A DNA stretch of 64,000 nt from assembly GCF_011440375.1 (NCBI RefSeq), contig NZ_JAAOIR010000001.1, forward strand, positions 868,001-932,000. Direction: 5' to 3'. The stretch comes from Halorubellus sp. JP-L1. Lineage in GTDB: Archaea; Halobacteriota; Halobacteria; Halobacteriales; Natrialbaceae. How positions within the stretch are numbered: the first letter of the stretch is position 1; each line of letters begins with the position of its first letter. Under the pieces are notes generated by a model that saw only the letters and a list, made by a program, of their open reading frames with translations, did not search any database and was not told the origin of the DNA. This document shows positions 7,527 through 63,911 of the stretch, piece by piece. A program made the position numbers and the translations under genes.

Positions 7527-8221
7527 CGGCCCGATCTTCCCAGCGGCAGTACGAGGCGGTCGTCTTCGACCTCGACAGGACCCTCGTCGAGCACGTCCAG
7601 GACGCCGCGGCCCTGTTCGAGGCCGCGTGTGCCGACGTCGGCATCGAGCCGTTCTGTCGCCCCGAGACGCTGGAACTCGCCGCCGACGTCGTCCGGGAAG
7701 GAGCCGCCGAGCTGGACGCCGAGAGCTACGAACGCCGCGTGTTCGCGACCGCGGCGGCGGCCACCGGGTCCGACGTGCCCGCGAGCGACCTCGTCCGGGC
7801 GTACAACGACGTCCTGGACAACCACGCGGTCGCCCTCCGTCCCGGGGCCGAGGCCGCGGTCGAAGCGGCGACCGACCTCGCCACCGCCGTCGTGACGAAC
7901 GGCCCGGAGGACACGCACGCGAAGAAGCTCCGAGCGGTCGACCTGACCGACCGGTTCGACGCGGTCGTCTACGGGAGCGACGTGCCGCGAGTGAAACCGG
8001 CGAGCGATCCGTTCGAACTGGCCCTCGCCCGCCTGGACGTCGACCCCGGTTCGGTCCTCAAAGTCGGCGACTCGCTCTCGAAGGACGTCGACGGCGCGAA
8101 CGAACTCGGCATCGACACCGCGTGGGTCCCCTTCGGCGACGGACGCCGGGGCGCGAACGACCCTGAGCCGACGTACACGCTGTCATCGCTCGCGGACCTC
8201 CCGGAGATCCTCTCGTCGTGA
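7523..8221 (+). CDS. HAD superfamily hydrolase
   Basis: This 232-residue HAD hydrolase has all four motifs: DLDRT with nucleophile D16 and D18, TNG at 125-127, K158 in RVKPASDP, and GDSLSKDVDGA (D183, D188) for Mg binding. A helical cap lies between motifs 1 and 2 (about 25-105), as in phosphoglycolate phosphatase-type enzymes. It is the last gene of the GNAT-IMPase-HAD operon (ATGA overlap). Two phosphatases of different folds plus an acetyltransferase in one operon suggest turnover of a phosphorylated metabolite. Its identity cannot be read from sequence. Confidence 0.87.
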   Translation: MTARSSQRQYEAVVFDLDRTLVEHVQDAAALFEAACADVGIEPFCRPETLELAADVVREGAAELDAESYERRVFATAAAATGSDVPASDLVRAYNDVLDNHAVALRPGAEAAVEAATDLATAVVTNGPEDTHAKKLRAVDLTDRFDAVVYGSDVPRVKPASDPFELALARLDVDPGSVLKVGDSLSKDVDGANELGIDTAWVPFGDGRRGANDPEPTYTLSSLADLPEILSS

Positions 8222-8263
8222 CTGCAGCGGTGCTGCACTCGTCGTGACCGCGGCGGCGACCCG

Positions 8264-9172
8264 CTACCGGCGTTTCTCCTCCACTCGCGTCGCGGTGACG
8301 TCCAGGTCGTCGTCTATCTCCGCGACGAGCACGTCGTCGTCGAGCGGCACGCGAACGGTGAACCGCCACGGGTCGGTGCCACGTACCTCCGTCGTCGCGT
8401 CCGTGACTGCCCACCGGAGCTCCCACTTCGGGATCGCGGACAGGTCCACCCCGTGGTCGTGATAGAACGCGATCGTCGCCGGATGATAGAGGAGGACCTG
8501 CGAGACAGGGAGGTAGTGGAACCCGGTGCAGTTCGTGCATCGGAGGATGGCGTAGGCGTCGAGGTCGCGAGTGTCGTGGAGAGAGGGCAGGGACCCGTCT
8601 CCGGCGTGGACTTCCACGGCGACCGCGTTCGCACACCACGGGCACTGACCGGCGGTCATGGCGTCGAGGACGGTTCGACTCCGCCGGTGGACGGTCCGGA
8701 GTCGTTCCTTGGGCGTCTCGTCGACGAGCCCCTGCGCCGGAACGTAGATGTCCGCGTAGTTCGCGTCGCAGGACCAGCAGCGGACGCGGAACAGCGTCTC
8801 GTAGAGGTGCGCCTCGACCGGGTCACCGCAGCGATGACAGTCCGTGCCGGTCGGGAAGCGGTCGATCGAGAGGTCGGCGTCGCTAGTGAGGAGTCCGGCG
8901 ACGAGCGCCCGGTACAGCACCATCCCCGGCCACCGCAGGCGATAGCCGGCGTCGCCTTTCGCGACGTAGTTCCCGAGGAGCTTCGTGAGGTGATAGTTGA
9001 ACCGCCCGGAGTCCCGGACGTCCACGCGCGACTTCAGGTCCGCGTACGTGAGGTGCGGGATGCCCGCGTCCGGCGAGACGGTCGCGTGCCCGAGTTCCTC
9101 GACGATCCGGACTCGGGTCTCGTCCGCGAGGAGCGAGAACGCCGTCTCGTGGTCGAATCCCTCGTCGCTCAT
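8264..9172 (-). CDS. Winged-helix regulator with zinc-ribbon C-terminal half (copy 2)
   Basis: This 302-residue protein has the same architecture as the product of 5067-5945. A winged helix spans about 8-85 (FSLLADETRVRIVEELG; DSGRFNYHLTKLLGNYV), and four CxxC pairs follow (C112/C115, C132/C135, C177/C180, C212/C215). It is convergent with the HAD gene, so the two paralogs bracket the GNAT-IMPase-HAD operon, one diverging from its start and one facing its end. It is likely a DNA-binding regulator, perhaps of that operon or of its sibling. The ligand and target are not visible. Confidence 0.8.
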   Translation of the reverse strand: MSDEGFDHETAFSLLADETRVRIVEELGHATVSPDAGIPHLTYADLKSRVDVRDSGRFNYHLTKLLGNYVAKGDAGYRLRWPGMVLYRALVAGLLTSDADLSIDRFPTGTDCHRCGDPVEAHLYETLFRVRCWSCDANYADIYVPAQGLVDETPKERLRTVHRRSRTVLDAMTAGQCPWCANAVAVEVHAGDGSLPSLHDTRDLDAYAILRCTNCTGFHYLPVSQVLLYHPATIAFYHDHGVDLSAIPKWELRWAVTDATTEVRGTDPWRFTVRVPLDDDVLVAEIDDDLDVTATRVEEKRR

Positions 9173-9210
9173 CGGTGCGTGGTGGTCGACATCGTCCTGT
9201 GTCGGATCCG

Positions 9211-9261
9211 TCTCGATACCGCGTCAGTCTCGATACCGCGTCAGTCTCGGGACCGCGTCAG
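9211..9261. repeat. 17-bp tandem repeat, three copies
   Basis: The unit TCTCGATACCGCGTCAG lies at 9211-9227 and 9228-9244, with a third copy (one GGGA for GATA change region) at 9245-9261. The last copy contains the stop codon of the minus-strand TIM-barrel gene (TCA at 9258-9260). The array therefore reaches from the intergenic gap into the coding end. Confidence 0.85.
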
Positions 9262-42582: not shown

Positions 42583-42920
42583 GGTTGTAATCTATCGCGG
42601 ACGCCCGCCCCAGCGGCCGCCCTACTGCGAGGGATTCTATAGGTCATACCGCGGTCGGCACGTTGTATCTTCGGGTCCGACAGCGCACTCGCGGAATCCG
42701 AGTTCGGACGCCCCCGATCGAACCGCTCCGGTGGAACGAACCGATCGCGACCGAACTATTTGGTCGCCGATGAGCAACTCGCCGTTCGAGGGGCCCCGCA
42801 GTTCGTGGGGCCCCGCAGTTCGTGGGGCCCCGCAGTTCGTGCTCCCCGGCGTTGCTCCGGGACACTCTGTCGCGCAGCCAGAGACTCCCGTACGGCACCA
42901 CCGTCGCTCGGATGCCACCC
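42583..42920. pseudogene. Frameshifted remnant of the giant pilus-locus gene plus a GGGGCCCC repeat
   Basis: This gap has no intact gene. Its minus strand encodes VPYGSLWLRDRVSRSNAGEHEL, compared with MPYGSLGAGDRVSEKPG plus HEL in the giant protein (residues 964-988). Further on, in another frame, it encodes NGELLIG, compared with NEELLIG at 1023-1029. The order and strand are the same, and 17 nt (TGCCGTACGGGAGTCTC) are identical. Three 17-bp GGGGCCCCGCAGTTCGT units separate the two parts. I read this as a degenerate duplicate of the segment just upstream of the metallo-beta-lactamase domain. The stretch 42583-42640 shows nothing further. Confidence 0.6.
42790..42840. repeat. 17-bp tandem repeat with an internal GGGGCCCC palindrome, three copies
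   Basis: GGGGCCCCGCAGTTCGT occurs perfectly at 42790-42806, 42807-42823 and 42824-42840. Each unit holds the palindrome GGGGCCCC. The array lies inside the remnant described above, and the 51-nt length is what shifts and pads its reading frame. Confidence 0.9.
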
Positions 42921-43796
42921 TCAGACGTCGGTCGCGAGGACGGCCCCGTTTGCAGTGTCGACCTCGATCACCGGCCCCGACGACGTTCTCACCAAGAGGC
43001 GACCGTCGAGGAACCAGATGGACGTCACGCGGCCGGACTCATCCGGGAGTGAGTCCATCCACCAGTCGACCTCGCAGTCCCGCGTGAGACGCAGCACGTT
43101 CCCCTCCACACGCCTATTCTCGATATCGGATTCCCCAACGAGAGCCACGAGTCCGTCGTCGTGCGGGAATGCCGACGAAATCCCTGCAGGTAACTCGAGC
43201 ATCCCTGCTTCCTCGTTCGATATCCGGCCCTCGTAGTCGACCTCGAAGGCAGTTCCCGGCACCCGGCGCACTCCAGACCGGCGGTCCCCGCCCGACGACT
43301 CATCAGCTCGACCGGCGGAACCGGAGTGGCTCGGCTCTTCAGTGGCCGCACGTTTCTCGGCTATCTCTGCCCGAGTGATCTCCGTCTCGCTGAGCGTGAG
43401 CGCTTCGTCGTACTCCAGAACGATGCACGCCTGGAGGTCGGATTCGGGTAGTAACCCGTCCCCACGAACGTGTTCCGCCCAGGACCGATGCAGGAAGTCG
43501 AGCCCGACGTATCCAACCGACTGGGCGGTGTCAGGGTCGCTGAGGGCCAGTTCCGGTCCTTCGACCGCCGCGTTCAGCACTGCCGTCGAGTAGTGGTCGC
43601 CAACTGTCTCGCTCACGTCGAACCCCGCATCTGAAACAGTCACCGAAATATAATACCGGGCCTCCGGATCGTAGCGGCCGAGATACGGGACGATCGAGTT
43701 CAGGAAGTCGAACGACCCACATTCGGCAGTCCAGAACCGCCTGAAGTCACCGTGAGTTTGCTCAAGCCACCCCAGAGTGCGTACCTCTATCCGCAT
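42921..43796 (-). CDS. Unknown protein, possible partner of the C-terminal hydrolase domain
   Basis: I do not recognise this 291-residue soluble protein. Its N-terminal region (about 1-110) is aromatic and alpha/beta (GDFRRFWTAECGSFDFLNSI, YYISVTVSDAGFDV). A polar linker follows (about 140-175). The C-terminal half is a strand-rich region like one or two beta-propeller blades (GRVTSIWFLDGRLLVRTSSG then PVIEVDTANGAVLATDV). There is no signal peptide or membrane segment, so it is probably cytoplasmic. Its start lies 35 nt inside the end of the giant gene, so translation is coupled. Immediately after its stop comes the remnant. The placement suits an immunity or chaperone protein, which is inference. 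Confidence 0.7.
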   Translation of the reverse strand: MRIEVRTLGWLEQTHGDFRRFWTAECGSFDFLNSIVPYLGRYDPEARYYISVTVSDAGFDVSETVGDHYSTAVLNAAVEGPELALSDPDTAQSVGYVGLDFLHRSWAEHVRGDGLLPESDLQACIVLEYDEALTLSETEITRAEIAEKRAATEEPSHSGSAGRADESSGGDRRSGVRRVPGTAFEVDYEGRISNEEAGMLELPAGISSAFPHDDGLVALVGESDIENRRVEGNVLRLTRDCEVDWWMDSLPDESGRVTSIWFLDGRLLVRTSSGPVIEVDTANGAVLATDV

Positions 43797-46700
43797 ACTT
43801 CACTCTGCTCGGCCATACTACTTGATGCTGGTCCTGAACGAGATAGATCGCCTCCTCGTCGTCTCCGCAGGGATACGGGAGCCTTTCCCGGAGTGCACTC
43901 GGCGCCGTCTCGCCATCCATCGGTCCGACAACCGGACCGAAGACGCCAGTGACGAACGTGACGTCTTCGTGAACGGCCGTCCAATAGACGGGAATGTCCG
44001 CTACTTCCGCCCTGTCGAAGACGCCACAATCCGGTGCGAACTCTTGATTACGGCGTCTCCTGTTACTGTTCGAGATGACGATGCTCTTGGGCGTGGTCGC
44101 AGCAAGTAATTCCTCACTGACGACCGTTTCGCCCTCCGCGCTCGTCCCGTGATGCGATGCTTGGAGTACGTCTACGTCCGCCAGATACTGCTCCTCAACC
44201 AGAGCTTGCTCCTGGTCTTGACGTATGTCTCCAGTCGTCAAGACGGTGAAATCCTCGTAGATCACTTTCATGACGACCGATTTCTCGTCGACGTCACCCG
44301 TACCTTCCGGCCTGAGTACTCTTGCAGTGGCGTCCCCGAAACGTATCGAGTCCCCCGCTCGGAGGATTTCCGTGGACGCCTCCCCATCGAGCGCTTCGGC
44401 AATGTCCGCTTCAGTACCGCTCCCGGTCGACGACCCCGAGAAGTGCACGTTCTCGATATCGAAGTCGTTCTCCTCGTCCTCGAGTAGGTCGTCTATCAGG
44501 TTCAGGTGATCCGAGTGATTGTGCGAGACGACGAGGTGATCGATGGTGTGATCCTCACCGTCCATCTCCGCTGCGAGAGTGTTCGAGAGGTCGTCCTCGT
44601 ACCGGGCGGGAGCGTTCGCGCCGGCATCGACGAGCATCGTTTCCGTTTCTCCGTCTTTCGATTGGTACTCGAAGAGTACGCTATCCCCTTTCCCCAGATC
44701 AATGAACGTTACGTCGAAGTGCTCGTCTGGACAGCCGTCCGTTTCATCCTCGTCGTCGTCGTCCGCTGGTCGGACGCGCACCTGTTCGACGTCGCTGAAC
44801 ACGTGCTTGCCAGCGTCACCGGCCACGTTGACGCTGGCGCGGACCTTGTTGTCGTCGTCCTCGTCCGGGAGGTCGCACGCGCTCGTCTCGAAGTCGTCGT
44901 CATCGCCGAACGCGAGGTCGATCATGTCGTCGCCGTCGCCACTGAGTGCACCGATGAGGAGTTCCTCGTTACTGGCGGTGGTGCCGCCGTCGTTCGGGAT
45001 GTTCGCGCACTTCGAGGGATCTTGCTTCTCCGGACTGAACCCGGGGCCGACGTACGGCCACGTCACCGAGCACTCCGTCAGCTCGTGCTTCGTCGCACCG
45101 GGCTTCTCGCTGACCCGGTCACCAGCGCCGAGACTCCCGTACGGCATCACCGTCCCACCCGGTGTCGCGAGCACGACCGACGTCATGCTCGAGAAGTTGA
45201 CCGCTTCGACCCGACCGACCCGATGCCGGAGCCCGTTGATCTCGAGATGCACGGGCTGGGGTTGCCGGACGTACGTCGTCGCACTTTCAGCACTCGGCCC
45301 GCCAGTGCGCGCACTCGCCGCGAACCGCGCGTACTCGCCATTCACGCGGACGTTCACGTTGTTCACGGAGACGTACCAGAAGCTCGGCCACGGCACGACC
45401 GGCGCGCCCGGATTCGGGAGCAATGCATTGTTCCGGGCCGCCATCGACGCGTGGAACGTGTTCTCCGGATCACTGACGGTCTCACCCCGTGGCCGCACCT
45501 CCGGAACCGTATTCCGCGTCACCGGTGACAGACTCAGGTACGACGGCGCGGTCTCGACGCGGAACGTCACGTCGTCGTACACGTCTGAGTTCCCGATCTC
45601 GCCGGGCGGCGACGTTCCGACCAGGTCCGGCGCATCCTCGAGCGCGCCGTTCGCGAACTGGAGCCCATCCGTGAGCGCGTTCTCCGTTCCCTCGACCGAA
45701 TCGGAGAGATTCTGGTTCACGTTCCCGCGAGCGTCGTTCCGGCGGCTCTCGACCTCGTCCATCCACCGACGCATCTGGCGAACGTACACGAGCCGTAACT
45801 CCGCGCGAGCCTTCTCCGTGATCGTGTCGTAGCCCGTCCGCGAATCCCGGTACACGATCGCGTCCCGCCGGTCCCTGAGTCGCTGTTTGAGCGTCGAGAA
45901 CACGTCGTCGTCCGTCGCCATGTCCATCCGAGAGACCTCCATCGTCGCCCAATCCGCGGTCGAACTGTTCACGCGGTCGTTCGTCTCCGTGATCTCTGCC
46001 CGCAGCCAATCCCTGACCTCCCCGCGCTCCCCGTCCTCGAACAGCTCACTGGGACCGAGGACGATCTTGTCGTCGTCGTTGACGACCTTCGACCGCAGGG
46101 CCCCCTCGCCGTGAACGTCCTCCGGCGAGATGTCCTCCAGCTCCGACTCGACGGAACTCGCGCCTCCGACCGAAAGGACCGTCGTGAGCGCTCGCTCAGG
46201 GACGTCGTCGAAGTACCGCGGTGGCCGGCCGTCTGCGTCCGAAGGCCCACCCTCGTAGATGTTCGACACGCCCTTGTCGGCGATGATGGACCGCTCGCTG
46301 TGGTTTGCCTTCGTGGTGACCTCCACCTCGTACGTGACCGAGGACGTCGACTCCCGCGTCTCGGTCGGGCCCAGGTCCTCCGGGCCGTCGTACTCCCACA
46401 CCTTCGTCCGCTTGTACGACTTCTCCACCGTGACCGCGACCGTGTGGAGGTCCTGCCACGAACTGTCCGCGCTACCGTCCATCCTCGAGCGCTTCTCGAC
46501 GGAGATGGACTTGTCCGTCCGGACCTTGTTGTCGCTGTCGACGCTCCAGTTCTCCGAATCCTCGAACGACGGCGTGGTGACGGTGGGGTTCTCACTTCCG
46601 CTCGAGGACGTCCTGACGTCAGATCCGATGTCGACCTCGTACGTCCGGTCGATGATGTTGTCGAGAACGTCCGTCTCGAAGTTCGAGTCCGGCATCTCCA

Positions 46701-48036
46701 TCTCGTTGTCGCCGGAGACGGCGTCCTTGTCGCTGTTCGGTGGTTCCTGACTGTCACCAGCTCCGTCCTCCGACCAATCCTGATCGTTCTGTTTCCACTC
46801 GTAGCTCCGACTGAGCACCCAGTTGTAGGACGGGTTCGAGAAGTTGCGGATGTGGACCGTCGTTTGCTTGTTCAACTGGTCGCGTGCCTCTCCAGCCATC
46901 CCGCCACCCCCGATCTCATCGAGGAGTTCGGTGAGGCTCTTGCGTTCGCCGCTGGGGCCGCCGACGATGAACTGGGTCGCTCGGCACAGGTCCTTCGGGC
47001 TCGACTCGACGTACCTGTCCTTCATCTTCTTCTTCAGGTCGAAGAGCTTCCCGCCGGTGCGCGCGAACAGGCAAGTCCAGGCACCGGCCATCGCGTTCCT
47101 CGCACCTTCGTCGCTCGTCCCGAAGACGTTCTTCTGAACGCCGTAGACGGCATCGTTCGCGAAGATCTCCGCCTCGTAGTTCTCGACCATGCTCGGGAAG
47201 TCCGCTTCGGCATCCTTGACTGGGGCAAACGTCGATTCCTTGTTTACCCGCTCGTAGTACGCCTTCGCGTAGGCGAGCGGGTATATCCGGGCCGCGAACT
47301 GGCGTCCGAACCCGTTCATGCCGTCCGCCTCGAAGAACCCCATGTCGAGTCGCTTCTCGTACTTCACGGTCCGGTTGTGGAGTGCGAACGCGGTGCTCGG
47401 GACCGTGAGCGAGATCTCTCGCGTCCGCGTGTCCTTCGTCCCATCCTCCCTGATTGCGGTGACGGAGACGTCCTCGACCGTCACCTCGACCTCGCCCGTC
47501 TCCACGTCGTCCTCGTCGGACTCGATTCCGGCGGTGAGTTCCACGCGATCGATCGCGGCCTCGAGTTCCTCCTGCGAGTAACTGACGTCCGGCGTCGAAC
47601 TCACGGTCCGGACGTCGCCCTGGAACGTCTGCCCGGTCGAAGCCAGCTGCTCCTGCACGGCGAGGTAGATTCGGAGCTTGACGTACCGCCGGAAGACGTG
47701 CCGGTCGTACTCGTACGAATCATCGTCCATCCCAGCGGACCCGGCGTCGAACGCTTCGCCGGCTGGACCGTCGGAGGGCTCCGTCACCGGCTTCCTGGCT
47801 GCCTTCTTCAACGCCTGCTTCGCAGCACTCTGAACGGCCGTTCTAGAGAGGGCCTCGGTCTGTCGGAGCGCCTCCGCCGTCGACGTGGACTGTTCGGCCG
47901 TCGACTCCGGCTGGGTTTGCTTGACGGCGACGACCGCGACGCTACTCACAAGGAGCAGGACGCCGATGATGGCGAACGGCACGCGCGCGCTGTCGTCCGA
48001 TGCGATAGTGATGGTGTTCCGGCGGCGTTTACTCAT
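43762..48036 (-). CDS. Giant pilus-locus membrane protein (DUF7286-like) with a C-terminal ComEC-like MBL domain
   Basis: This 1424-residue protein has a basic N-terminus (MSKRRRNTIT), one membrane helix (about 19-40, VPFAIIGVLLLVSSVAVVAV) and a long extracytoplasmic region (about 45-1030) with coiled-coil-like helices and beta segments. It resembles the large protein I know as DUF7286 in this haloarchaeal locus. After an acidic linker (about 1030-1105) comes a metallo-beta-lactamase domain with DLGKGDS (1113-1119), LVDAGAN, HNHSDH (1172-1177), VLTTGDI and SHHGTS (1294-1299). These are the ComEC/Rec2 hydrolase motifs. The gene runs without interruption, overlaps the next gene by 35 nt and follows the pilin-like genes. 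The exported hydrolase could act on nucleic acid; that is inference. Confidence 0.85.
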   Translation of the reverse strand: MSKRRRNTITIASDDSARVPFAIIGVLLLVSSVAVVAVKQTQPESTAEQSTSTAEALRQTEALSRTAVQSAAKQALKKAARKPVTEPSDGPAGEAFDAGSAGMDDDSYEYDRHVFRRYVKLRIYLAVQEQLASTGQTFQGDVRTVSSTPDVSYSQEELEAAIDRVELTAGIESDEDDVETGEVEVTVEDVSVTAIREDGTKDTRTREISLTVPSTAFALHNRTVKYEKRLDMGFFEADGMNGFGRQFAARIYPLAYAKAYYERVNKESTFAPVKDAEADFPSMVENYEAEIFANDAVYGVQKNVFGTSDEGARNAMAGAWTCLFARTGGKLFDLKKKMKDRYVESSPKDLCRATQFIVGGPSGERKSLTELLDEIGGGGMAGEARDQLNKQTTVHIRNFSNPSYNWVLSRSYEWKQNDQDWSEDGAGDSQEPPNSDKDAVSGDNEMEMPDSNFETDVLDNIIDRTYEVDIGSDVRTSSSGSENPTVTTPSFEDSENWSVDSDNKVRTDKSISVEKRSRMDGSADSSWQDLHTVAVTVEKSYKRTKVWEYDGPEDLGPTETRESTSSVTYEVEVTTKANHSERSIIADKGVSNIYEGGPSDADGRPPRYFDDVPERALTTVLSVGGASSVESELEDISPEDVHGEGALRSKVVNDDDKIVLGPSELFEDGERGEVRDWLRAEITETNDRVNSSTADWATMEVSRMDMATDDDVFSTLKQRLRDRRDAIVYRDSRTGYDTITEKARAELRLVYVRQMRRWMDEVESRRNDARGNVNQNLSDSVEGTENALTDGLQFANGALEDAPDLVGTSPPGEIGNSDVYDDVTFRVETAPSYLSLSPVTRNTVPEVRPRGETVSDPENTFHASMAARNNALLPNPGAPVVPWPSFWYVSVNNVNVRVNGEYARFAASARTGGPSAESATTYVRQPQPVHLEINGLRHRVGRVEAVNFSSMTSVVLATPGGTVMPYGSLGAGDRVSEKPGATKHELTECSVTWPYVGPGFSPEKQDPSKCANIPNDGGTTASNEELLIGALSGDGDDMIDLAFGDDDDFETSACDLPDEDDDNKVRASVNVAGDAGKHVFSDVEQVRVRPADDDDEDETDGCPDEHFDVTFIDLGKGDSVLFEYQSKDGETETMLVDAGANAPARYEDDLSNTLAAEMDGEDHTIDHLVVSHNHSDHLNLIDDLLEDEENDFDIENVHFSGSSTGSGTEADIAEALDGEASTEILRAGDSIRFGDATARVLRPEGTGDVDEKSVVMKVIYEDFTVLTTGDIRQDQEQALVEEQYLADVDVLQASHHGTSAEGETVVSEELLAATTPKSIVISNSNRRRRNQEFAPDCGVFDRAEVADIPVYWTAVHEDVTFVTGVFGPVVGPMDGETAPSALRERLPYPCGDDEEAIYLVQDQHQVVWPSRVKYADRGTHSGVA

Positions 48037-48085: not shown

Positions 48086-49045
48086 TCACCACGTTCGGAC
48101 GACGACGACGACGTGTCCGGTCTGAATGGCGTCCGCGAGCGTCTGCCCGGTCACGGTATCCATCTCGTCGAAGTACTTGTCGTCGAGCTCTTCGAGGACG
48201 ATCTCTTCGAGCTCGTCGACGACCTCCTCGTTCGCTTGCGCTGCGTCTGCGACGTCGCGCTCGTACACTGGTGCACCGTACGGCCCAGTCGAATACTTGA
48301 AACTGCTCGTCTCGGGGTACGACTGCAGGATATTTCGCATCCGTTTGTACCGGTATCGGGCGAGTGACCCCTGGAAGCCGCGTTTCTCGATGGCGAGCTG
48401 CGTGGCTGTCGGTGGGAACTGCCCGTCGACGATGGTTTCGGCGACGAGGGTGGCGACGGCCCGTTTCCCACCTCGATCGTACGCTCGCTCGATGCGGGCG
48501 TCGGTCAGCCGGTCCATGCCGCTGTCGACGCGGATCGTCGTGGTACTGACGTCGGCGTCGCCGGGCGGGGTGGGCCCCGCTTCGATGCGACCTTGGATGT
48601 CCGACCGGTTGTACGGCCGCCAGAGTGCAACGACGTGCGCGTTCTCGTTCGTGCCGGTGACGCGCTCGTTTACGCCCGCTTCGACGGCTTCGACGTACGG
48701 CTCGCTCCCCTCGTTGAGGGGAGTGCGGTCGCCAGGGGTGTCGAACGTAACGCTTCGGACGGTGGCGTCCGCCACGAGTTCGACTGCAGTGCCGTGATTC
48801 CGTCGGCTGTACTCGTAGTACTCCTCGTCCTCGAACTGGTCACTGTTCTCGAGCGACTCGAGCGAGTACTCGGCGGTGATGGTGGTCGCGGAGAGCGTCT
48901 GTGCGAGTTCGTCGGGGTTTCGGGTCTCAGTGGGTTGATCGTCCTCGCCGAGGAAGACGACCATCGTCGCGATCGATGCGGTGACGAGGAGGAGTGCGAG
49001 TGCGACGTCGACGACCGTACTCACCGCTCTGTTCTCGGGTCTCAT
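48086..49045 (-). CDS. Pilin-like membrane protein (DUF7284-like)
   Basis: This 319-residue protein has an archaeal pilin-like N-terminus (MRPENRAVSTVVDVALALLL, hydrophobic helix about 11-32) and a long, acidic extracytoplasmic part. The later part has helices rich in charge (RIERAYDRGGKRAVATLVAE, EEVVDELEEIVLEELDDKYF). It fits the family I recall as DUF7284, encoded between DUF7285- and DUF7286-like genes. Its ATG at 49045 overlaps the stop of the upstream gene (ATGA), which excludes the GTG nine bases further up. It may be a minor pilin or a structural part of the machine. Confidence 0.78.
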   Translation of the reverse strand: MRPENRAVSTVVDVALALLLVTASIATMVVFLGEDDQPTETRNPDELAQTLSATTITAEYSLESLENSDQFEDEEYYEYSRRNHGTAVELVADATVRSVTFDTPGDRTPLNEGSEPYVEAVEAGVNERVTGTNENAHVVALWRPYNRSDIQGRIEAGPTPPGDADVSTTTIRVDSGMDRLTDARIERAYDRGGKRAVATLVAETIVDGQFPPTATQLAIEKRGFQGSLARYRYKRMRNILQSYPETSSFKYSTGPYGAPVYERDVADAAQANEEVVDELEEIVLEELDDKYFDEMDTVTGQTLADAIQTGHVVVVVRTW

Positions 49046-49518
49046 TTGCGCCACACCACCACGTTGAGGCGGGCGCTCCGCACCCGCCCGTCGTCGGTCT
49101 GATAGGGGATCGAGCGGCTCGCGAAGTCCGCAACGCCGACGAGGTCGGAGACGGTTACCGAACTCGCATCGTCACTCGACCCGTACAGCGCTTCCTCCTC
49201 TTGCTCCCAGCCGCTGTCTTCGAGGACAGTGACGTTCACGTACACGTTGTACTGGGTCGGGATTGCGGAGTCCGGGAGGGTCGTGGCCGCAAGTTCGCCC
49301 TCCGTGTAGACCGAGTCCTCACCGATAGTGTGCCAGACGTTCTGGAGCGTCGGTTCGCTCACGTCCCGATCCGTTCGCGTGTCCATCACGTCCGTGAAGA
49401 ACCCGCCGTAGACGCCGATCGCGAGTGCGATCGTCGAGATGGCGATGAGTGCGGCGAGCGGTTCGGTCTGGCCGCGGGTCGTTCCGTCAGGCGAGTACGA
49501 GAATGACAGAGTAATCAC
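49042..49518 (-). CDS. Pilin-like membrane protein (DUF7285-like)
   Basis: This 158-residue protein has RGQTEPLAALIAISTIALAI (about 15-34), which looks like a pilin/class III signal followed by one hydrophobic helix. An extracytoplasmic beta-rich domain follows (about 50-158, QYNVYVNVTVLEDSGW and RVRSARLNVVVWRK). I associate it with DUF7285. Translation starts with GTG at 49518, which overlaps the upstream gene's end by 32 nt; no ATG is available in frame. It is part of the five-gene operon starting at 49975. Confidence 0.75.
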   Translation of the reverse strand: MITLSFSYSPDGTTRGQTEPLAALIAISTIALAIGVYGGFFTDVMDTRTDRDVSEPTLQNVWHTIGEDSVYTEGELAATTLPDSAIPTQYNVYVNVTVLEDSGWEQEEEALYGSSDDASSVTVSDLVGVADFASRSIPYQTDDGRVRSARLNVVVWRK

Positions 49519-49975
49519 CCCAAGTTACCTTGCGTACTTCGAGCGTCCCGCTCGCGGACGTGAACACGCGTCCGTCCGCATCGCGGACGTGGCCCTGTGC
49601 GGCCTCGACGGCGGCCTCGAACGCGGCCTGGTCTGCGAAGACGTCCTTCGGCGAATCGCCGTGGACGACGGCGGCCAGATCCTCGTCCGGCCAGGCCGGT
49701 GCCATGGTCCCGAACCGGACGAGTGCGCGGGACGTCCCACCGTCGTTCTTCAGGACGACGGTGTCTCGGTTCACCCAGTAGCGGTCGGCGTCGTGTTCGT
49801 ATCGAGCGGTGCCGCCGTACGGTTGTGCGCCGACCTTGTCGATCGTGTTCGCGACGCCGTTCGCGTTCGGTGGTGGCGTCGAGGGGATCGAGAGCGCCAG
49901 CCCCATCGCTGCGATACTGAAGATGGCGACGCCGATGAAGACGTACCATCCGTCGGCGGGCGCCTCGAAGTCCAT
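49487..49975 (-). CDS. Pilin-like membrane protein (DUF7283-like)
   Basis: This 162-residue protein starts MDFEAPADGWYVFIGVAIFS, with one N-terminal membrane helix (about 10-32), PSTPPPNANGVANTIDKVG, then a small extracytoplasmic domain that ends in a hydrophobic strand (VTWGDYSVILVLA). It fits what I recall as DUF7283. It is the first gene of the operon DUF7283-DUF7285-DUF7284-DUF7286/MBL-partner. A TTTAAA element (50000-50005) is centred 27 nt upstream of the ATG. The domain could be a minor pilin or assembly factor. Confidence 0.76.
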   Translation of the reverse strand: MDFEAPADGWYVFIGVAIFSIAAMGLALSIPSTPPPNANGVANTIDKVGAQPYGGTARYEHDADRYWVNRDTVVLKNDGGTSRALVRFGTMAPAWPDEDLAAVVHGDSPKDVFADQAAFEAAVEAAQGHVRDADGRVFTSASGTLEVRKVTWGDYSVILVLA

Positions 49976-50095: not shown

Positions 50096-51895
50096 TCAAC
50101 CGATGAGGCCGTTCGTGAGGAGGAACGTCCCCGTGAACAACAGCATCGCGGTGAACAGCGCCTTCCCGACTGCGCACCCGACGAGCGTCCGGTCGAGTCC
50201 GTGCTTGAGACCGACCGAGAGCGTCGTCAAGATGACGGACATCATGAGGACGTACGCGCCGACGACGATGGCCAGGCTCTCCGTCGGGAACGCCACAGTG
50301 GCTTGCGAACTCGCCGCGCCCGCCGAGTTCGCCGCCTGCCCCGCCGCGTCCACGCTCCCGGATGCGACCTCCGCACTACCCGACATCGACAGGCTCGCAC
50401 CTTGACTCCGCGATTCGATGACCTTACTCAGTGCGATGGTCGCACCGGCGATGATCGGCCCGAAGAACGACGCCGTCTGATCGAGCGTTCCCGTCACCAT
50501 CGAGAGCTGTCGTTTCGCCTCCCGCTCGACCTCCTGGAGTTCCTCCAGGTGGTCCGCCATCGCGACCACCGCCCGGCCCGCTGGCTTCCCCTCGTTCGAC
50601 GCGATAGACAGCAGCGCTGCCGTCCCGTTCGCTCGCGGACTCGGAACGTCGTTGAGCGCGCCGTACGCTCCGTTGAACGCCTCGTCGACGTCGACGTGCA
50701 GTCGACGTTGCACGCCCGCAGCCTGCTCGAACAGGTCGCCGGTCTCGGCCGGGACCTTGTCCGCGGCCTGCTCTAGGCCCGCTTCGACCGATTCGCCCTC
50801 CGACACCTGTCGGCCGACGAGGTAGAGCGCGTCCACGAGGTGCTTCTCGATGGCGCGAACGTGATCGCCGACCGACTTGATCGGCTTGAAGTAGAGGTAG
50901 AGTGCGACTCCCGGCCCGATCCCCAGTGCCACGATCGGTGCCAGGTACCCGACGGCGAACGCCTGCACGCTCGCGAACGCGGCCGCTGCGGACCCGCCGG
51001 CGGCGAGCGCGATGAGCGCGAGGTTCTGATTCACGTCCGGATGGGAGCGAGTGACTTGCGGCGGCGGGAACGCAGCGGGTCGCCGCTGCAGTAACCACAC
51101 GCTCGTCACCACGAGCATCGTCGGCAGGAGGACGTCGTAGAGCAGGACGTACGCGCCGATACCCGGCCGGATGTCCGCCATACGCATCGCGGGGAGGAGC
51201 GCGACGAGCGCCAGCGGGAGCATCACGCCGAACGCGTAGAGCGCAGTCGTCGGGCCACGGATCTGCTCGGTGAAGTCCGCCATCTGCTCGCGAGTCCCGG
51301 TGAGCACGGCGTGCAGCGACCGTTCGAGCGTCCGGCCGCGTTCGCCCTCCGGTGCGTCTTCGGCGGTGGAGAGCAAGTGCGCGGACCGGCGAAGTGCCGG
51401 GAACTCCTCCGCCCATTCGTCCGCGAACGAGAGCAGTCCGGATTCGGCCGTGCCGAGGGACTGATCGATGTGCGCCTGCAGGCTCTTCGCGAGCGGCCCG
51501 TACCCCGTCTCCGCCGCGAACCGAATCGCCGTCTCAGTCGAGGGCTGGATCTGCATCCGGAGGACCGCCCGCCCGATGAGGTCGGGCGTCTCACCGAGCG
51601 CTCGCGTTCGCCGGAACGCGGCGAGGAGACGCGGGAACGAGTGAACGACCTGGATCGCGCCGAGAGCGGCAATGAACGAGAACAGGAACACGCCCCAGAG
51701 GGGAATCGGGAGCGCCAGCAGCGGAAGGACCACCAGCAGCGTCACGATGCCGGCACCGTAGCCGCTCCGGACGACGGTTCTCGCGTCCACGGGCGACTCG
51801 ACGAACGCCAGCGATTCGATCAGCTCCTGGCTCGCTTCGACCTCGTATGGGTACAGTTTCGCGAGGAACCGGACGGTGCGCTCCGTTCCGGACAT
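50096..51895 (-). CDS. PilC/TadC-type (type II secretion system F) membrane protein
   Basis: This 599-residue integral membrane protein forms the platform that couples the PilB ATPase to pilin extraction. It has two T2SSF domains (about 60-200 and about 380-520) and about eight to nine membrane helices, including YGAGIVTLLVVLPLLALPIP, LVALLPAMRMA and SLAIVVGAYVLMMSVILTTL. SGTRxxxMADF-like cytoplasmic loops are visible. The gene starts three bases after the PilB stop, so the two are coupled. Length is typical for the double-domain archaeal form. Confidence 0.88.
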   Translation of the reverse strand: MSGTERTVRFLAKLYPYEVEASQELIESLAFVESPVDARTVVRSGYGAGIVTLLVVLPLLALPIPLWGVFLFSFIAALGAIQVVHSFPRLLAAFRRTRALGETPDLIGRAVLRMQIQPSTETAIRFAAETGYGPLAKSLQAHIDQSLGTAESGLLSFADEWAEEFPALRRSAHLLSTAEDAPEGERGRTLERSLHAVLTGTREQMADFTEQIRGPTTALYAFGVMLPLALVALLPAMRMADIRPGIGAYVLLYDVLLPTMLVVTSVWLLQRRPAAFPPPQVTRSHPDVNQNLALIALAAGGSAAAAFASVQAFAVGYLAPIVALGIGPGVALYLYFKPIKSVGDHVRAIEKHLVDALYLVGRQVSEGESVEAGLEQAADKVPAETGDLFEQAAGVQRRLHVDVDEAFNGAYGALNDVPSPRANGTAALLSIASNEGKPAGRAVVAMADHLEELQEVEREAKRQLSMVTGTLDQTASFFGPIIAGATIALSKVIESRSQGASLSMSGSAEVASGSVDAAGQAANSAGAASSQATVAFPTESLAIVVGAYVLMMSVILTTLSVGLKHGLDRTLVGCAVGKALFTAMLLFTGTFLLTNGLIG

Positions 51896-51898
51896 CGG

Positions 51899-53830
51899 TC
51901 ACTGACCTCGCGTCGCGTACGCGGCAGCGACCTCGGACGGAGCGGTCCGCCTGTCCGCGGCGATGTCCTCGAGTTCCGCGGCGCGTTCGGCGACGTCGGC
52001 GCGGAGGTCCGCGTACGACTCCGCCGGACCCGTCAACCGGTTCAGGAACCGGCTCTTCCCGCGGTCCACGCGGTCCGTCGACACCGCCTGGTCACCGTCG
52101 ATCTCGTAGAGCGGCGCGAACCGGATACCGTCGTCGTCCACGATCACCTCCTCGATCGCGGAAAGCCGTCGTTTCCGGCCGTCGGGCGTCCTGTACGCTT
52201 GCACGGTCACGACGAGGTCGGTCGCGCCGAACGACGACGGCTCGACGCCGAGGTCGGAGACGACGCGTTCGTACACGTCCTCCGCGCCGTCCCCGTGAAT
52301 CGTCCCGAGCACCGCGTTCGCGTTCGCACCGACGCGCATCGCCTCGTACAGCACCTCCGCTTCCTCGCCGCGGATCTCGCCGACGACGAGCGCCCCGTCA
52401 CCGAGCCGGAGCGCCGTCCGGAGTGCATCCGCCGCAGTGATCTCCGGACCGTCTCCCGTCCCCGTCCGGAGCGCCTGCACGTCCCGATCGACGTTCTGGA
52501 GTTGCGTGACCGGCAGTTCGGGCGTGTCCTCGATGACGACCGTTCGCGTATCCGGCGTCAGCTCGTACAGGAGCGTTCCGAGCAGCGTCGTCTTCCCCGC
52601 ACCACGAGTCCCCGCGATGAGTGCCGCGGCGTTCCGCTGGATCGCCACCGACAGGAACGCCGCCGCTTCCGACGGCATCGTTCCGTTCGCGACGAGCTCG
52701 GGGAGCGTGAACCGGTCCTCGGCCTGTTCGCGGAAGGCGAACGCCGTCCCTTCGGCGACCGGGGATTTCACGCCCGCGACGCGGACGCCGGTCCCACGGT
52801 CCAGCGTCGCCGTCGCGTCGACGGTCGGCTGCGCGCGAGAGAACGCACGCCCGCTTATCTTCCGGATGCGGGACGCGAGCGCACCGCCACCCTCCGGCGT
52901 CAGGTGAACGTTCGTCGTCATCGACTGCCCGTCGACCACGACCCGGAGCGGGTTCTCGCCGACGGGGGACGTCACGTACACGTCCGTGACTCGCGGATCC
53001 GCGAAGAGGTCCTCGAGGATGCCGTACCCTTGCGTGTGCTTCGAGACGACCGCAGCGAGGCGCGGTTCCACCGATTCGTCCGTCACGTACTCCAGCGCGC
53101 GAGACGCCGCCCGCTCACCCGTCACTTTCCCGTTCGCGATCGCTTCGTAGCATTCGAGCAGGAGCGTCCGTTGTTTCGCCGACAGCGACGTGTCCACGAC
53201 GTCGACCGCGTACAGCGGAACGCTGTTCGGGCGTTCGTACACGCGGGCTTCGCTCCCGGTGTCGAGGGACTCCATGTCCTCGAGCCTCGCACCGTCGTCG
53301 ATGGATTGCCGGACGAAGTAGTGCCCGACGCTCAACCCGACCCCGGGGTCGAGTGCGGCTTCGAGGCTCTCGATGCCGTCCGCCGCACGCGTCAGCCCGG
53401 ACTGGCGACCGATCTCAGCGATCGGCCCGACGCGCGTCTCGATCCGTTCCGCGACGGCGAGCGGGTCGACTTGCACGAGCTCCGCGAGCCGTTCGTCGCG
53501 GTTCTCGACGAGCCGGTGGAATTCGGCAGCGGCGGAGAGCACCCGCACGCCATCGCCAGCGTATCGATGCTGGAGGCCCTGTGACTCGACGAAGATGCGC
53601 TCGATGGACCGCTCGGTCATCCCCGAGATGGCCGTTCGGCGACAGGCGTCCGCGGTCGCGAGGTCGCCGTCGCAATCGCTCGCGTCCACGTGCGCCGTCG
53701 TGCCGTCTATGGAGACCGTGCACGCACAGTCCGCGGCCGAATCGGACGACCCGAACCAGTCCGCGACCGCGTTCAGGCCCAAGCGTTCGAGCATCGACGA
53801 ATCGTCAGAAGCGTTCTCTTCCTCGCTCAT
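51899..53830 (-). CDS. PilB/GspE-type secretion ATPase
   Basis: This 643-residue hexameric ATPase powers pilus or secretion subunit assembly. An N-terminal region (about 1-110) has scattered cysteines (DCACTV, DASDCDGD, DACRRTAI). Then come an N2 domain (about 200-370) and the RecA-like core with Walker A GTRGAGKTT (407-415), VVIEDTPELPVTQLQNV (Asp box, about 435-451), Walker B-like ALVVGEIRGEEAEVLYEAM (about 480-498) and the His box LGTIHGDGAEDVYERV. It is the third gene of the operon DUF7310-DUF7311-PilB-PilC. The motifs are intact. Confidence 0.9.
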   Translation of the reverse strand: MSEEENASDDSSMLERLGLNAVADWFGSSDSAADCACTVSIDGTTAHVDASDCDGDLATADACRRTAISGMTERSIERIFVESQGLQHRYAGDGVRVLSAAAEFHRLVENRDERLAELVQVDPLAVAERIETRVGPIAEIGRQSGLTRAADGIESLEAALDPGVGLSVGHYFVRQSIDDGARLEDMESLDTGSEARVYERPNSVPLYAVDVVDTSLSAKQRTLLLECYEAIANGKVTGERAASRALEYVTDESVEPRLAAVVSKHTQGYGILEDLFADPRVTDVYVTSPVGENPLRVVVDGQSMTTNVHLTPEGGGALASRIRKISGRAFSRAQPTVDATATLDRGTGVRVAGVKSPVAEGTAFAFREQAEDRFTLPELVANGTMPSEAAAFLSVAIQRNAAALIAGTRGAGKTTLLGTLLYELTPDTRTVVIEDTPELPVTQLQNVDRDVQALRTGTGDGPEITAADALRTALRLGDGALVVGEIRGEEAEVLYEAMRVGANANAVLGTIHGDGAEDVYERVVSDLGVEPSSFGATDLVVTVQAYRTPDGRKRRLSAIEEVIVDDDGIRFAPLYEIDGDQAVSTDRVDRGKSRFLNRLTGPAESYADLRADVAERAAELEDIAADRRTAPSEVAAAYATRGQ

Positions 53831-55303: not shown

Positions 55304-56386
55304 TCAGACGTCCGCGTCGCTCGCGTTCGGATCGTCCCCGCCGTGGGGCGTATCGCGCCAGCGGATCTTCGCCGTGTGAACCGTCTCGGTCGCGTCGTCG
55401 ACGATGAGGACCTCGCCCGGTACGGTCGGCATCCGTTCGTCGAGCCCGCCGTCCATGTACGTCGGTTGCGCGGACCGGAGGGCGTCGAGGTCCGTCGTGG
55501 ACGTCAGTCGATGCGAGATGATGACGTCGGACTGCGAGATCGCTACCTCGGGGACGACGCTCGGCCGCTGCGTCGCCATCACGATACTCACGCCCGGTGC
55601 GCGCCCTCGCGTCAGGATCATCTCGAGGGCGGCCTCGGCGACGCCGTCGAAGAACGCGTGCGCCTCGTCCAGGAGCAACCACGGGAGTCGCTCTATCTCT
55701 TCGTCGATGCGCGCCCGATAGAGCGCTTCGCCGATACCGCGGCAGACCGCGTTCATCGGGGCGTGATCCAGGCCGGAGACGTCGACGACGGTCACCGCCG
55801 AGCTCGCGAGGTCGGCGGCGTCGAGACCGTCGGGGTCGAAGACGTCCCAGGCGTCAGCGAGGTCAAGGTGGTTCTTCGCCGCTCGCTCGTCGGCTTCCTT
55901 CGCGTCCGCCTGCGCGACGTGCTCGCGCATCCCCGCGATCGAGTCCGCGGACTGCGCGGCCTGCCAGACGAGACCGCCAGCGCCGCTCTCGGGCGCGAGG
56001 TCGAGGAGCGCGCACCACGAGCGCGGGTCGAGCGAGTTCGGCGTGACCGACGGGTTCGAAATCACGTCCGCGGGCACGGGGTTCGCGTCGTCCTCGGCGG
56101 GCTCCGCGAGCGTGGTGAACACGCCCATCGGGTCGACGACGACCGGCGCGACGCCGTAGCCGCGCGCGAGTTCCTCCGCGACGACGCCGAGCGTGAACGA
56201 CTTCCCGTATCCGCGCTTCCCGACGACGAGCGAGGCGTGCGGGCCGTCAAGGTCGAGGTGTAGCGGTGCGCCGCTACTCCCGTCGAGCGCCCGGTACGTC
56301 CCGAGGTACCCGGTCGGTCGGTCGTCGTCCTCGTCGTCACCGCGGCCAAGTACGAACGTCACACCCGATACTAAATTTCGCCCCAT
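55304..56386 (-). CDS. HerA/VirB4-like P-loop ATPase
   Basis: This 360-residue ATPase of the HerA-FtsK family has an N-terminal strand domain with ALDGSSGAPLHLDLDGPHAS, Walker A GKRGYGKS (56-63), Walker B WLLLDEAHAFFD (about 236-247) and the arginine/sensor region GVSIVMATQRPSVVPEVAIS (about 263-282). These ATPases pump DNA or work as secretion motors. It is divergent from the pilin and just upstream of the PilB operon, hinting at a role in the same machine. It starts with the ATG at 56386. Confidence 0.86.
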   Translation of the reverse strand: MGRNLVSGVTFVLGRGDDEDDDRPTGYLGTYRALDGSSGAPLHLDLDGPHASLVVGKRGYGKSFTLGVVAEELARGYGVAPVVVDPMGVFTTLAEPAEDDANPVPADVISNPSVTPNSLDPRSWCALLDLAPESGAGGLVWQAAQSADSIAGMREHVAQADAKEADERAAKNHLDLADAWDVFDPDGLDAADLASSAVTVVDVSGLDHAPMNAVCRGIGEALYRARIDEEIERLPWLLLDEAHAFFDGVAEAALEMILTRGRAPGVSIVMATQRPSVVPEVAISQSDVIISHRLTSTTDLDALRSAQPTYMDGGLDERMPTVPGEVLIVDDATETVHTAKIRWRDTPHGGDDPNASDADV

Positions 56387-61840: not shown

Positions 61841-62212
61841 ATGGTAGAGGTAACGGCGTCGACCGAGCGGCAGGACGACGTGACGTTCGTCTGGGCGACG
61901 GTTCGGAACACGCGTCGTACACCGCAGCGCGTCGCGATCGAGAACGCGCTCGATGGAGCGACGTGGCCGCCGGTTACCGGCCGGATGCGTGACCCGCGAT
62001 GGCAGAACGGGACGTGGGTCGAGACGATCGAGCCCGGGCGCTGTTGTGGCGTCGGGTTCTCGACGCCCGCCGTTCCCGATGCGGACCCGGTTCGCGTGGT
62101 GTCGACGGAGCGTGCCGAGGATTCGAGTTCGGAGACCGAGAACGCTGAGGCGGTGCTCGCGTCGCTCGACGAGTGGGCGCCGCCGAGTGCCGTCCTTCGA
62201 CGGGACAGATGA
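61841..62212 (+). CDS. Small beta-rich protein (DUF7857-like)
   Basis: This 123-residue protein has strands VTASTERQDDVTFVWATVRN and QRVAIENALDGATWPPVTGR, and a central PGRCCGVGFSTPA. Its acidic, helical C-terminus ends LDEWAPPSAVLRRD. I associate it with DUF7857, seen next to MinD-like genes in haloarchaeal pilus loci. No membrane segment is visible, and the two adjacent cysteines may matter. It overlaps the MinD-like gene in an ATGA. Function is unknown. Confidence 0.72.
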   Translation: MVEVTASTERQDDVTFVWATVRNTRRTPQRVAIENALDGATWPPVTGRMRDPRWQNGTWVETIEPGRCCGVGFSTPAVPDADPVRVVSTERAEDSSSETENAEAVLASLDEWAPPSAVLRRDR

Positions 62213-62901
62213 TCGTCGCTATCTCGGGCGGCAAGGGTGGGGTCGGGAAGACGACGGTCTCGCTGAATCTCGCTCGGGCGCTCGATGCCGTCGTCGTCGA
62301 CGGCGATCTGACGACGCCGGATCTGCCGCGTGGTCGCGGGCCGGACATGCACGACGTGCTCGCGGGGCGTGCTGGCCCGATGGAGGCCGTCGAGGAGTTC
62401 GATGACGTCCACGTCCTGCCGTGTGGGCGAACGTTGGACGGGGCGTCCGCGGCGGACGTCTCGAACCTGGAGAACGCGGTGTCGTTGCTCGACCGGCGGT
62501 TCGAGTACGTGCTCGTGGATTGTCCCGCTGGCCTCGCTCGGGACGTCGGTCACCAGTTGCGGTGTGCGGATGCGGCGGTGCTGGTGACGATGGCGAACCG
62601 GCCGGCGCTCTGGAACGCGCTGAAGACGCGCCAGCTCGCGATGGACGTGGAGACGCCGATCGCGTGCATCGTCGTGAACAAGGCGACGTCGGACGCTGCG
62701 GGCATCGTCGCGGATCGCGTGGAGGAACGCATCGGGACGCCGACGCACGTGCTCGAGGAGTACGACGCCATCTTCGAGAGTCAGGACGACGGACATCCCG
62801 TTCACCACGTGGCCCCGGACTGCGATGGGTTGGAGACGTTCGACGACGTCGCTGCCGAGGTCGTTCGGTGTGGCGAACACATCAGGTCGGCGTCCCGGTG
62901 A
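62209..62901 (+). CDS. MinD/ParA-like ATPase
   Basis: This 230-residue P-loop ATPase of the deviant Walker type has GKGGVGKTT at 8-16, signature switch DCPAGL (about 105-110, with Asp in the Walker B position) and VNKATSDAAG (about 150-160). It is shorter than chromosome-segregation ParA and resembles MinD proteins that position membrane machines such as pili. The C-terminus lacks an obvious amphipathic membrane helix. It shares an operon with the DUF7857-like gene. Confidence 0.86.
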   Translation: MIVAISGGKGGVGKTTVSLNLARALDAVVVDGDLTTPDLPRGRGPDMHDVLAGRAGPMEAVEEFDDVHVLPCGRTLDGASAADVSNLENAVSLLDRRFEYVLVDCPAGLARDVGHQLRCADAAVLVTMANRPALWNALKTRQLAMDVETPIACIVVNKATSDAAGIVADRVEERIGTPTHVLEEYDAIFESQDDGHPVHHVAPDCDGLETFDDVAAEVVRCGEHIRSASR

Positions 62902-62963
62902 TCGAGCGACCGTGTCCTCCTCGAAGCTGTAGCCTCGTCGCAACGTCCAGAACCGGCAGCAGA

Positions 62964-63035
62964 GGAGATATTAAATCTGTATATAGAATATAAAATTTAA
63001 TATTCCCCTGTACCGTTTTGAAGTTCATAATCTAC
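62964..63035. promoter_or_regulatory. A+T-rich promoter region of the second TFB gene
   Basis: An A+T-rich stretch carries several TATA-like elements (ATATTAAATC, GTATATAGAATATAAAAT, TTTAATATT). The last candidate lies about 35 nt upstream of the ATG at 63036. Transcription from several sites is possible, and the start cannot be fixed from sequence. Confidence 0.55.
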
Positions 63036-63911
63036 ATGCAACGCTCCGAGGTTGTCTGTCCCGAGTGCGAGGGGCGACTCCGAGACCACGGCAACGAACT
63101 CGTCTGTGACTCCTGCGGGATCGTCTCGGACGAACCGAACGTCGACCATGGGCCAGAATGGCGTCGCGGCGACGGGCGCGACGACGAGGACCGTCGCCGT
63201 ACCGGCGCACCGCGCCGACGGAACCGACACGACCGCGGGCTCTCCACCGAGATCGGGTACGGGTGCGGGAGCGACGTCAGCGGCGACCGACAACGGCAGT
63301 TCGTCCGGATGCGCAAGCAACACAAGCGAGCGCAGATCGCGTCGAAAGCCGAACGGAATCGCGTGTACGCGTACACGGAGATCGGACGCATCCGCTCGTC
63401 GCTCTCGCTCGCCGACAGCATCGAGGACCAGGCCTGTTCGCTGTTCGACTCGGCGCAGGACGCGGACCTGCTCTGTGGGCGGTCGCTCGAGGGGTTCGCT
63501 GCCGCGGTCGTCTACGCGACGTGCCGTAGTCGGTCGGTCGCCCGAACGATGGGCGAGATCGTCGCGGTGTCGCGCGCGGACCGCGACGAACTCAAAGCCG
63601 CGTACGACGCCCTCAATCAGGAACTCGGGCTCCCGATCGGGCCGATCGATCCCGTCGAGTACCTGCCGCGGTACGCGTCAGAGATCGGGGTCTGCAAGGA
63701 GGTCGAGCGGATCGCGCGCCAGTACGTCGTGTTGCTGATTGAGAGCGGTCGGATGGGCGGGAAGAACCCGAGCGGTGTCGCGGCCGCGTGCCTCTACAAA
63801 GCGGCGGCGGAGCGGGACGACGACGTGAACCAGCAGACGCTCGCGGACCTCGCTGACGTGTCTCGAATGACGATCTCAGCCACGGTCTCCGATCTGAAGG
63901 CGGTGGTGTGA
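63036..63911 (+). CDS. Divergent transcription factor TFB paralog
   Basis: This 291-residue TFB paralog is about 40 residues shorter than the canonical one at 20170. It keeps a zinc ribbon (C8, C11, C24, C27), a shortened Arg-rich linker (RRRTGAPRRRNRHDRGLSTE, the B-reader/linker region), and two cyclin repeats (about 100-190 and 195-285). It ends in LADVSRMTISATVSDLKAV. The recognition helix differs from the usual VSEVTIRNRYKE, implying altered DNA contacts. It sits between a MinD-like and a ParA-like gene in the pilus locus, so it may direct a dedicated promoter set. Confidence 0.88.
   Translation: MQRSEVVCPECEGRLRDHGNELVCDSCGIVSDEPNVDHGPEWRRGDGRDDEDRRRTGAPRRRNRHDRGLSTEIGYGCGSDVSGDRQRQFVRMRKQHKRAQIASKAERNRVYAYTEIGRIRSSLSLADSIEDQACSLFDSAQDADLLCGRSLEGFAAAVVYATCRSRSVARTMGEIVAVSRADRDELKAAYDALNQELGLPIGPIDPVEYLPRYASEIGVCKEVERIARQYVVLLIESGRMGGKNPSGVAAACLYKAAAERDDDVNQQTLADLADVSRMTISATVSDLKAVV

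Follow-up and report, generated by a model that had tools for sequence, protein, structure and literature searches.

Does the giant gene of a pilus-like operon in Halorubellus sp. JP-L1 end in an exchangeable toxin tip, and are the small gene and the displaced piece of DNA behind it an immunity gene and a scar left by past exchange? The window analysed here is a stretch of 64,000 nt (NZ_JAAOIR010000001.1, assembly GCF_011440375.1, positions 868,001-932,000 of the forward strand; genome 3.76 Mb), and coordinates are positions within it unless an accession or locus number is given. The giant gene (43762..48036; like all other features of the cassette and operon listed below, on the minus strand unless stated) encodes P0001, a protein of 1424 aa ending in a metallo-β-lactamase (MBL) domain, and is followed by the gene for P0002, a 291-aa partner (42921..43796). 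A preliminary description had likened this order of carrier, tip, immunity gene and orphan junction to the layout of polymorphic toxin systems, and the swaps of tip and carrier and the orphan cassettes found among relatives support the likeness. At the level of sequence, operon membership, an added tip, a linked partner, independent exchange of tip and carrier, and orphan junctions are all present. As judged by comparison, the polymorphic-toxin reading is well supported. We give a probability of roughly three in four to the full proposal that the giant protein of a type-IV-pilus/Tad-like operon carries a polymorphic toxin-immunity cassette, including the display, cleavage and immunity steps set out below.

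P0001 consists of a DUF7286 carrier (residues 1-1016), a linker (about 1017-1107) and an MBL tip (about 1108-1400). Pfam matches DUF7286 to residues 14-872 (E 6.5e-127) and Lactamase_B_2 to the protein with E 0.0002, and the ComEC/Rec2 family TIGR00361 matches residues 1107-1344 (E 1.9e-14). The boundary between carrier and tip was placed by comparison with 75 other DUF7286 loci, 59 from the same family and 16 further. Among the 59, 56 end no more than 51 residues beyond the end of their alignment to P0001, the most distal point of which is residue 1018, and the remaining three form a distant branch that can be aligned over 50-70 residues only. Twelve of the 16 further loci likewise end at the junction and are tipless. 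Because most relatives end near residue 1016, P0001 from about residue 1017 on is best regarded as an addition to a carrier part encoded by 44989..48036. The acidic linker (44716..44988) belongs to the tip cassette: tblastn matches it to L248 and L252, and ACDLP...GCPDE pieces of it are retained in the plasmid cassettes described below.

The DUF7286 C-terminal region occurs in 282 of the 392 genomes of the order, and its continuation differs: an MBL in the window, another tip in G212 and G299, an extension in G360 and G411, and nothing in most. The carriers nearest to P0001 are those of G212, G299 and G360 (43-45% identity). In G212 and G299 (Haloarculaceae group) the same junction is followed by an unrelated tip of about 350 aa, for which Pfam and NCBIfam name no family, and then by a partner of 233-235 aa. 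The operon neighbours in G212 match those of the window; for G299 the examined stretch covers the adjoining DUF7284 gene alone. A third extension, of 457-485 residues, is common to G360 (L143) and G411 (L145). Neither the C-terminal domain nor the partner is invariant across relatives, a comparison on which the preliminary description had staked its case.

The same MBL tip is also found on a different carrier family, the secreted TSP3/VWA proteins. On plasmid pNYT1 of Haloarcula taiwanensis (CP019156.1) a secreted dockerin/TSP3/VWA protein runs into an MBL tip and is followed by a P0002 homologue, and in G264 the tip on a TSP3 carrier is followed by two P0002 homologues in tandem. Between these two loci identity is 89% over the 100 carrier residues that lead up to the tip and 49% in the tip itself. 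In G198 the MBL tip ends a TSP3 protein of 2524 aa, and the gene behind it encodes 174 aa that correspond to the N-terminal half of P0002 alone. In addition, near-twin plasmids of Salinibaculum litoreum (CP046867.1) and Halostella pelagica (CP040680.1) have an orphan cassette, made up of a piece homologous to P0001 residues 963-1060, an acidic linker and an MBL tip with a frameshift, lying amid partner-type genes. No carrier for this cassette is present in the examined upstream stretch of 6 kb (CP046867.1) or 10 kb (CP040680.1). The two plasmids, from differently named genera, are both about 316 kb and share 97% identity across the 4 kb that were compared. A separate orphan tip, of 326 aa, is found in G360, which belongs to the genus group of Haloarcula taiwanensis (L207, 6350-13472). 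It bears the repeated junction of the upstream 1645-aa secreted protein and is followed by an immunity-like gene.

The partner gene, a 291-codon open reading frame, starts at 43796 and the 1424-codon giant gene stops at 43762, giving the 35-nt overlap that had been described from the outset. No export signal was seen in P0002 by eye. P0002 falls into two halves. A hidden Markov model (HMM) of the N-half (43332..43796), built without P0002, matches residues 24-154 (i-E 1.4e-12). This family lies behind the MBL tip in five of five loci, on both carrier types, and in none of the loci with other tips; four of the five were found with queries containing P0002 and the fifth, G198, through the MBL alone. 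The immunity-type gene directly downstream is thus linked to the tip rather than to the carrier. The C-half (42924..43331), an all-beta domain, is shared with the partners of other toxin-like tips. An HMM of small immunity-like proteins matches it with E 3e-5, and the same model, built without either, strongly matches the G212 and G299 partners. C-half matches occur in 40 of the 392 genomes, where the genes sit behind a protein combining eCIS_core with colicin D and behind other toxin-like tips, often in tandem. Several of the preceding genes encode secreted proteins sharing a C-terminal tip that ends in (F/Y)EL or GGxQYxx, the type to which the orphan tip of L207 belongs. At L195 (6697-10050) the eCIS_core and colicin D protein is followed by a 97-aa gene and then by four tandem genes of the C-half family. 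On these two sets of HMM matches P0002 is a probable immunity protein, and the co-occurrences suggest that its N-half confers specificity for MBL tips and that its C-half is generic. Pfam and NCBIfam name no family for P0002, and it was modelled poorly on its own (mean predicted local distance difference test score, pLDDT, 46).

The tip itself (43837..44715) retains in alignment the motifs HNHSDH (H1172, H1174, D1176 and H1177), TTGD and SHHG. Its closest solved structure is the MBL domain of ComEC (9ic4), by sequence (E 4e-48) and by Foldseek (E 4e-16; predicted model with mean pLDDT 69 and predicted template modelling score 0.76), with weaker matches to RNase J and CbpE in HMM and fold comparisons. 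Since the nearest relative by fold and sequence is the ComEC MBL and the metal-binding motifs are intact, the likeliest activity of the tip would be cleavage of nucleic acid. G+C content is 58% over 43762-44730, against 67.9% for the whole window, and is also lower in the partner gene; the low value for the tip is in line with recent arrival. In the 392 genomes the three close MBL tips score E 1e-138 or less and the next best match about 5e-42. One tree places four tips on one side of a branch with 100/99 support and 13 stand-alone MBLs on the other, and another separates three tips from 36 other MBLs at 100/97. Searched with the tip alignment, viral contigs gave no match; the matches in genome contigs were for the most part stand-alone MBLs, with a few relatives from bacteria, and no carrier tip was recognised among them.

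The relationship to ComEC raises an alternative. In bacteria, type-IV-pilus-like machines act in DNA uptake, and with ComEC MBL domains as its nearest solved relatives the tip might be a nuclease serving pilus-linked DNA uptake or the degradation of extracellular DNA, with P0002 as its chaperone or regulator. P0001 has the MBL domain of ComEC/Rec2 (TIGR00361 and structure matches) and shares its fold and HxHxDH-type motif, but Pfam finds no match in it to the multi-pass Competence membrane domain of ComEC, and its MBL is fused to DUF7286. We consider the alternative improbable on this ground and because an unrelated tip takes the same point on the carrier in G212 and G299, the same MBL tip sits on secreted TSP3 carriers, relatives of P0002 lie behind the colicin D protein and other toxin-like tips, and orphan cassettes come with arrays of partner genes.

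A further alternative casts the tip as a hydrolase for digestion or surface modification, used in adhesion or nutrition and fused by chance, and P0002 as a functionally unlinked neighbour. Stand-alone ComEC-like MBLs, mostly with a lipobox-like start, are indeed present in 113 of the 125 genomes of the family (L003-L031), and CbpE, one of the more distant structural matches, is a surface phosphorylcholine esterase. Five loci, however, pair an MBL tip with a P0002 homologue although the carriers are unrelated, the P0001 and P0002 genes overlap, and orphan cassettes exist, so that we regard this explanation as very improbable and favour a toxin tip with a dedicated immunity gene.

The piece of DNA behind P0002 had been described as a frameshifted copy of the codons for residues 964-1029 or so, lying between 42583 and 42920. 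Its right-hand part, 42680..42920, stands; 42583-42679 is the sequence upstream of the adjacent LUD gene, because an alignment of that gene and the sequence before it with Halorubellus salinus shows 72% identity over a segment ending exactly at 42679. H. salinus has no island at its LUD site. Direct inheritance within the genus was rejected on this observation and because the sole DUF7286 match in H. salinus belongs to another branch. Within the piece, 24 of 25 bases, GACGGTG(A/G)TGCCGTACGGGAGTCTC, are identical between the carrier gene (45154-45130; feature 45130..45154, residues 961-969) and the displaced copy (42905-42881; feature 42881..42905). The match has E 6.5e-7 against the P0001 gene and 9.7e-6 against the whole window, and with up to 3 mismatches the 25-mer occurs in the genome at these two sites only and nowhere in a reversed control. 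The similarity extends beyond the 17 identical bases first reported, to the protein level: TVMPYGSL...DRVS (P0001 962-976) aligns with TVVPYGSL...DRVS with a score of 52, reached in 0 of 2000 dinucleotide shuffles (Gumbel p about 3e-4), and D-R-V-S is retained despite changed codons. The distal end of the proposed homology is less firm. SNEELLIG (1022-1029) has a collinear counterpart, SNGELLIG, in another frame, which alone gives p of about 0.11; an ELLIG-type motif is also present in the junction of the plasmid cassettes (SELLLAGASGD). The piece gave no hit with a profile covering the whole DUF7286 C-terminus. A 17-bp tandem repeat of 3.6 copies within it (42780..42841, no strand assigned) is a plausible cause of the frameshift.

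The piece appears to be a decayed junction from an earlier exchange, shorter and more decayed than the orphan cassettes on the plasmids and without an intact tip in the window. It might instead have arisen by duplication during insertion of the island beside the LUD gene, which would leave the effector-immunity pair unaffected. The piece lies exactly at the island edge (42680), and in G011 the 3' end of the DUF7286 gene is duplicated in tandem along with a PQQ-repeat gene (L064, about 6800-9220); this locus was rejected as a parallel to the window in that it has no tip. Set against this, the same junction precedes the orphan MBL cassette on two plasmids, and the orphan tip of G360 (L207) carries a repeated carrier junction, so that junction copies made by exchange are known in this setting. 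We hold the duplication possible but rather unlikely, and prefer a junction left behind by exchange.

By its sequence relationships the operon of P0001 is of the archaeal type-IV-pilus/Tad-like kind, with an order of genes that is kept in relatives. Preceding P0001 are genes for DUF7284 (48086..49054; Pfam E 3.6e-79), DUF7285 (49042..49518; E 7.3e-26) and DUF7283 (49487..49975; E 4.5e-48), a predicted TadC-like membrane platform protein of 599 aa (50096..51895) and a VirB11/TadA-type secretion ATPase (51899..53830; T2SSE PF00437, E 5.4e-23). The platform protein, which matches no Pfam family, was assigned by position and hydrophobicity, and several relatives' loci have a homologue with 52-56% identity in the same place. 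Upstream of the operon lies a gene for a HerA/FtsK-like ATPase (55304-56386; P-loop region, by eye), and genes for MinD-like and TFIIB-like proteins are found nearby (62173-63911). MinD-like and TFIIB-like genes are also found near DUF7286 in L143 and L145, and a TFIIB-like gene in L140. Secreted PQQ-repeat proteins with a twin-arginine translocation- or lipobox-like start are encoded near DUF7286 genes in L064, L140 and L144, in tandem in L064 and L144.

These observations suggest the following mechanism. The DUF7286 carrier, which has a single hydrophobic stretch at its N-terminus as read from the sequence, would be anchored there, and the VirB11/TadC-type machine of its operon would expose or export it, with an exchangeable enzyme displayed as a tip at its C-terminus, in this case a ComEC-type MBL. 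The tip would enter a neighbouring cell and, to judge from its fold and motifs, most likely cut nucleic acid there, and P0002 would neutralise it in the cytoplasm of the producer, its N-half recognising MBL tips specifically and its C-half supplying the domain common to partners of other tips. Tips and immunity genes would move between carriers as cassettes by recombination at the junction sequence, leaving such decayed junctions as the one behind P0002. Several points weigh against this proposal. MBLs of this family commonly occur in haloarchaea as stand-alone secreted lipoproteins, so that the presence of one does not imply toxicity, and every tip branch in the MBL trees is long. A partner accompanies just two DUF7286 tip types, the MBL of the window and the G212/G299 tip; directly behind the G360/G411 extension there is none, the next gene being MinD-like and on the opposite strand. 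The junction remnant is short, its first block alone is significant and its homology is weak past about 25 residues. Finally, it is operon membership that suggests delivery by the pilus-like machine.

An exchangeable tip, a probable antidote gene and what is probably an exchange scar suggest that pilus-like machines may be armed with interchangeable weapons. Toxin delivery by the carrier would make a widespread pilus-like locus of archaea a candidate for a weapon or for a means of kin recognition, and would add the ComEC-type MBL to the known polymorphic toxins. The chances seem to us evenly balanced for the more general proposal that a haloarchaeal pilus/Tad-like machine carries a polymorphic effector, with DUF7286 as a tip adaptor for toxin-immunity cassettes that other secreted toxins also use and the ComEC-type nuclease as a new toxin class with its own immunity family, the N-half of P0002. 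The tip and its partner form a small pair, open to direct testing in a model haloarchaeon.

Among known systems, CdiA-CT/CdiI has the same order of carrier, tip, immunity gene and displaced junction, whereas P0001 lacks by Pfam a two-partner secretion domain and filamentous haemagglutinin repeats, and CdiB is missing. Membership of contact-dependent inhibition systems was rejected, as P0001 matches DUF7286 and MBL only and no CdiB-type partner is among the neighbouring genes scanned. The Kil system of Myxococcus xanthus resembles the proposal in that a Tad-like machine is required for contact-dependent killing; it is bacterial, has no known polymorphic tip, and its authors left open whether it secretes a toxin (PMC8460266). 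The VARTIG modules of Thermococcales likewise combine an archaeal surface protein, a recombining C-terminus and variable downstream genes, but have Ig domains and neither enzyme tip nor pilus operon (PMC8416519). Toxins are not mentioned in the accessible sections of a survey on type IV pili in archaea (PMC4858521). No function is recorded for DUF7286, nor is it mentioned in the literature searched, a search outside which Makarova et al. 2019 lies.

The closest likeness is to polymorphic toxin systems as described in the accessible sections of PMC3482391: a constant carrier, an exchangeable tip, an adjacent immunity gene, orphan cassettes bearing the junction, and tandem immunity genes. The carriers listed in those sections do not include the DUF7286 protein of a pilus locus, and a lactamase or MBL is not mentioned there as a toxin type. 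According to the same sections, the occurrence of polymorphic toxins in bacteria is well known and they have been described in some haloarchaea, mostly with delivery by Photorhabdus virulence cassettes or contractile injection systems (PVC/CIS), and the classical systems are rare in archaea. Function has been demonstrated for a contractile system of haloarchaea that has toxin-immunity pairs (PMC11566945). The eCIS_core (DUF4157) domain is present in L195 and absent from P0001 by Pfam. Haloarchaeal polymorphic toxins with secreted multidomain and DUF4157/eCIS carriers were reportedly described by Makarova et al. in mBio in 2019. The TSP3/VWA and eCIS_core carriers found here have the same tips and partner family; the carrier of the window differs from these in being part of a VirB11/TadC operon.
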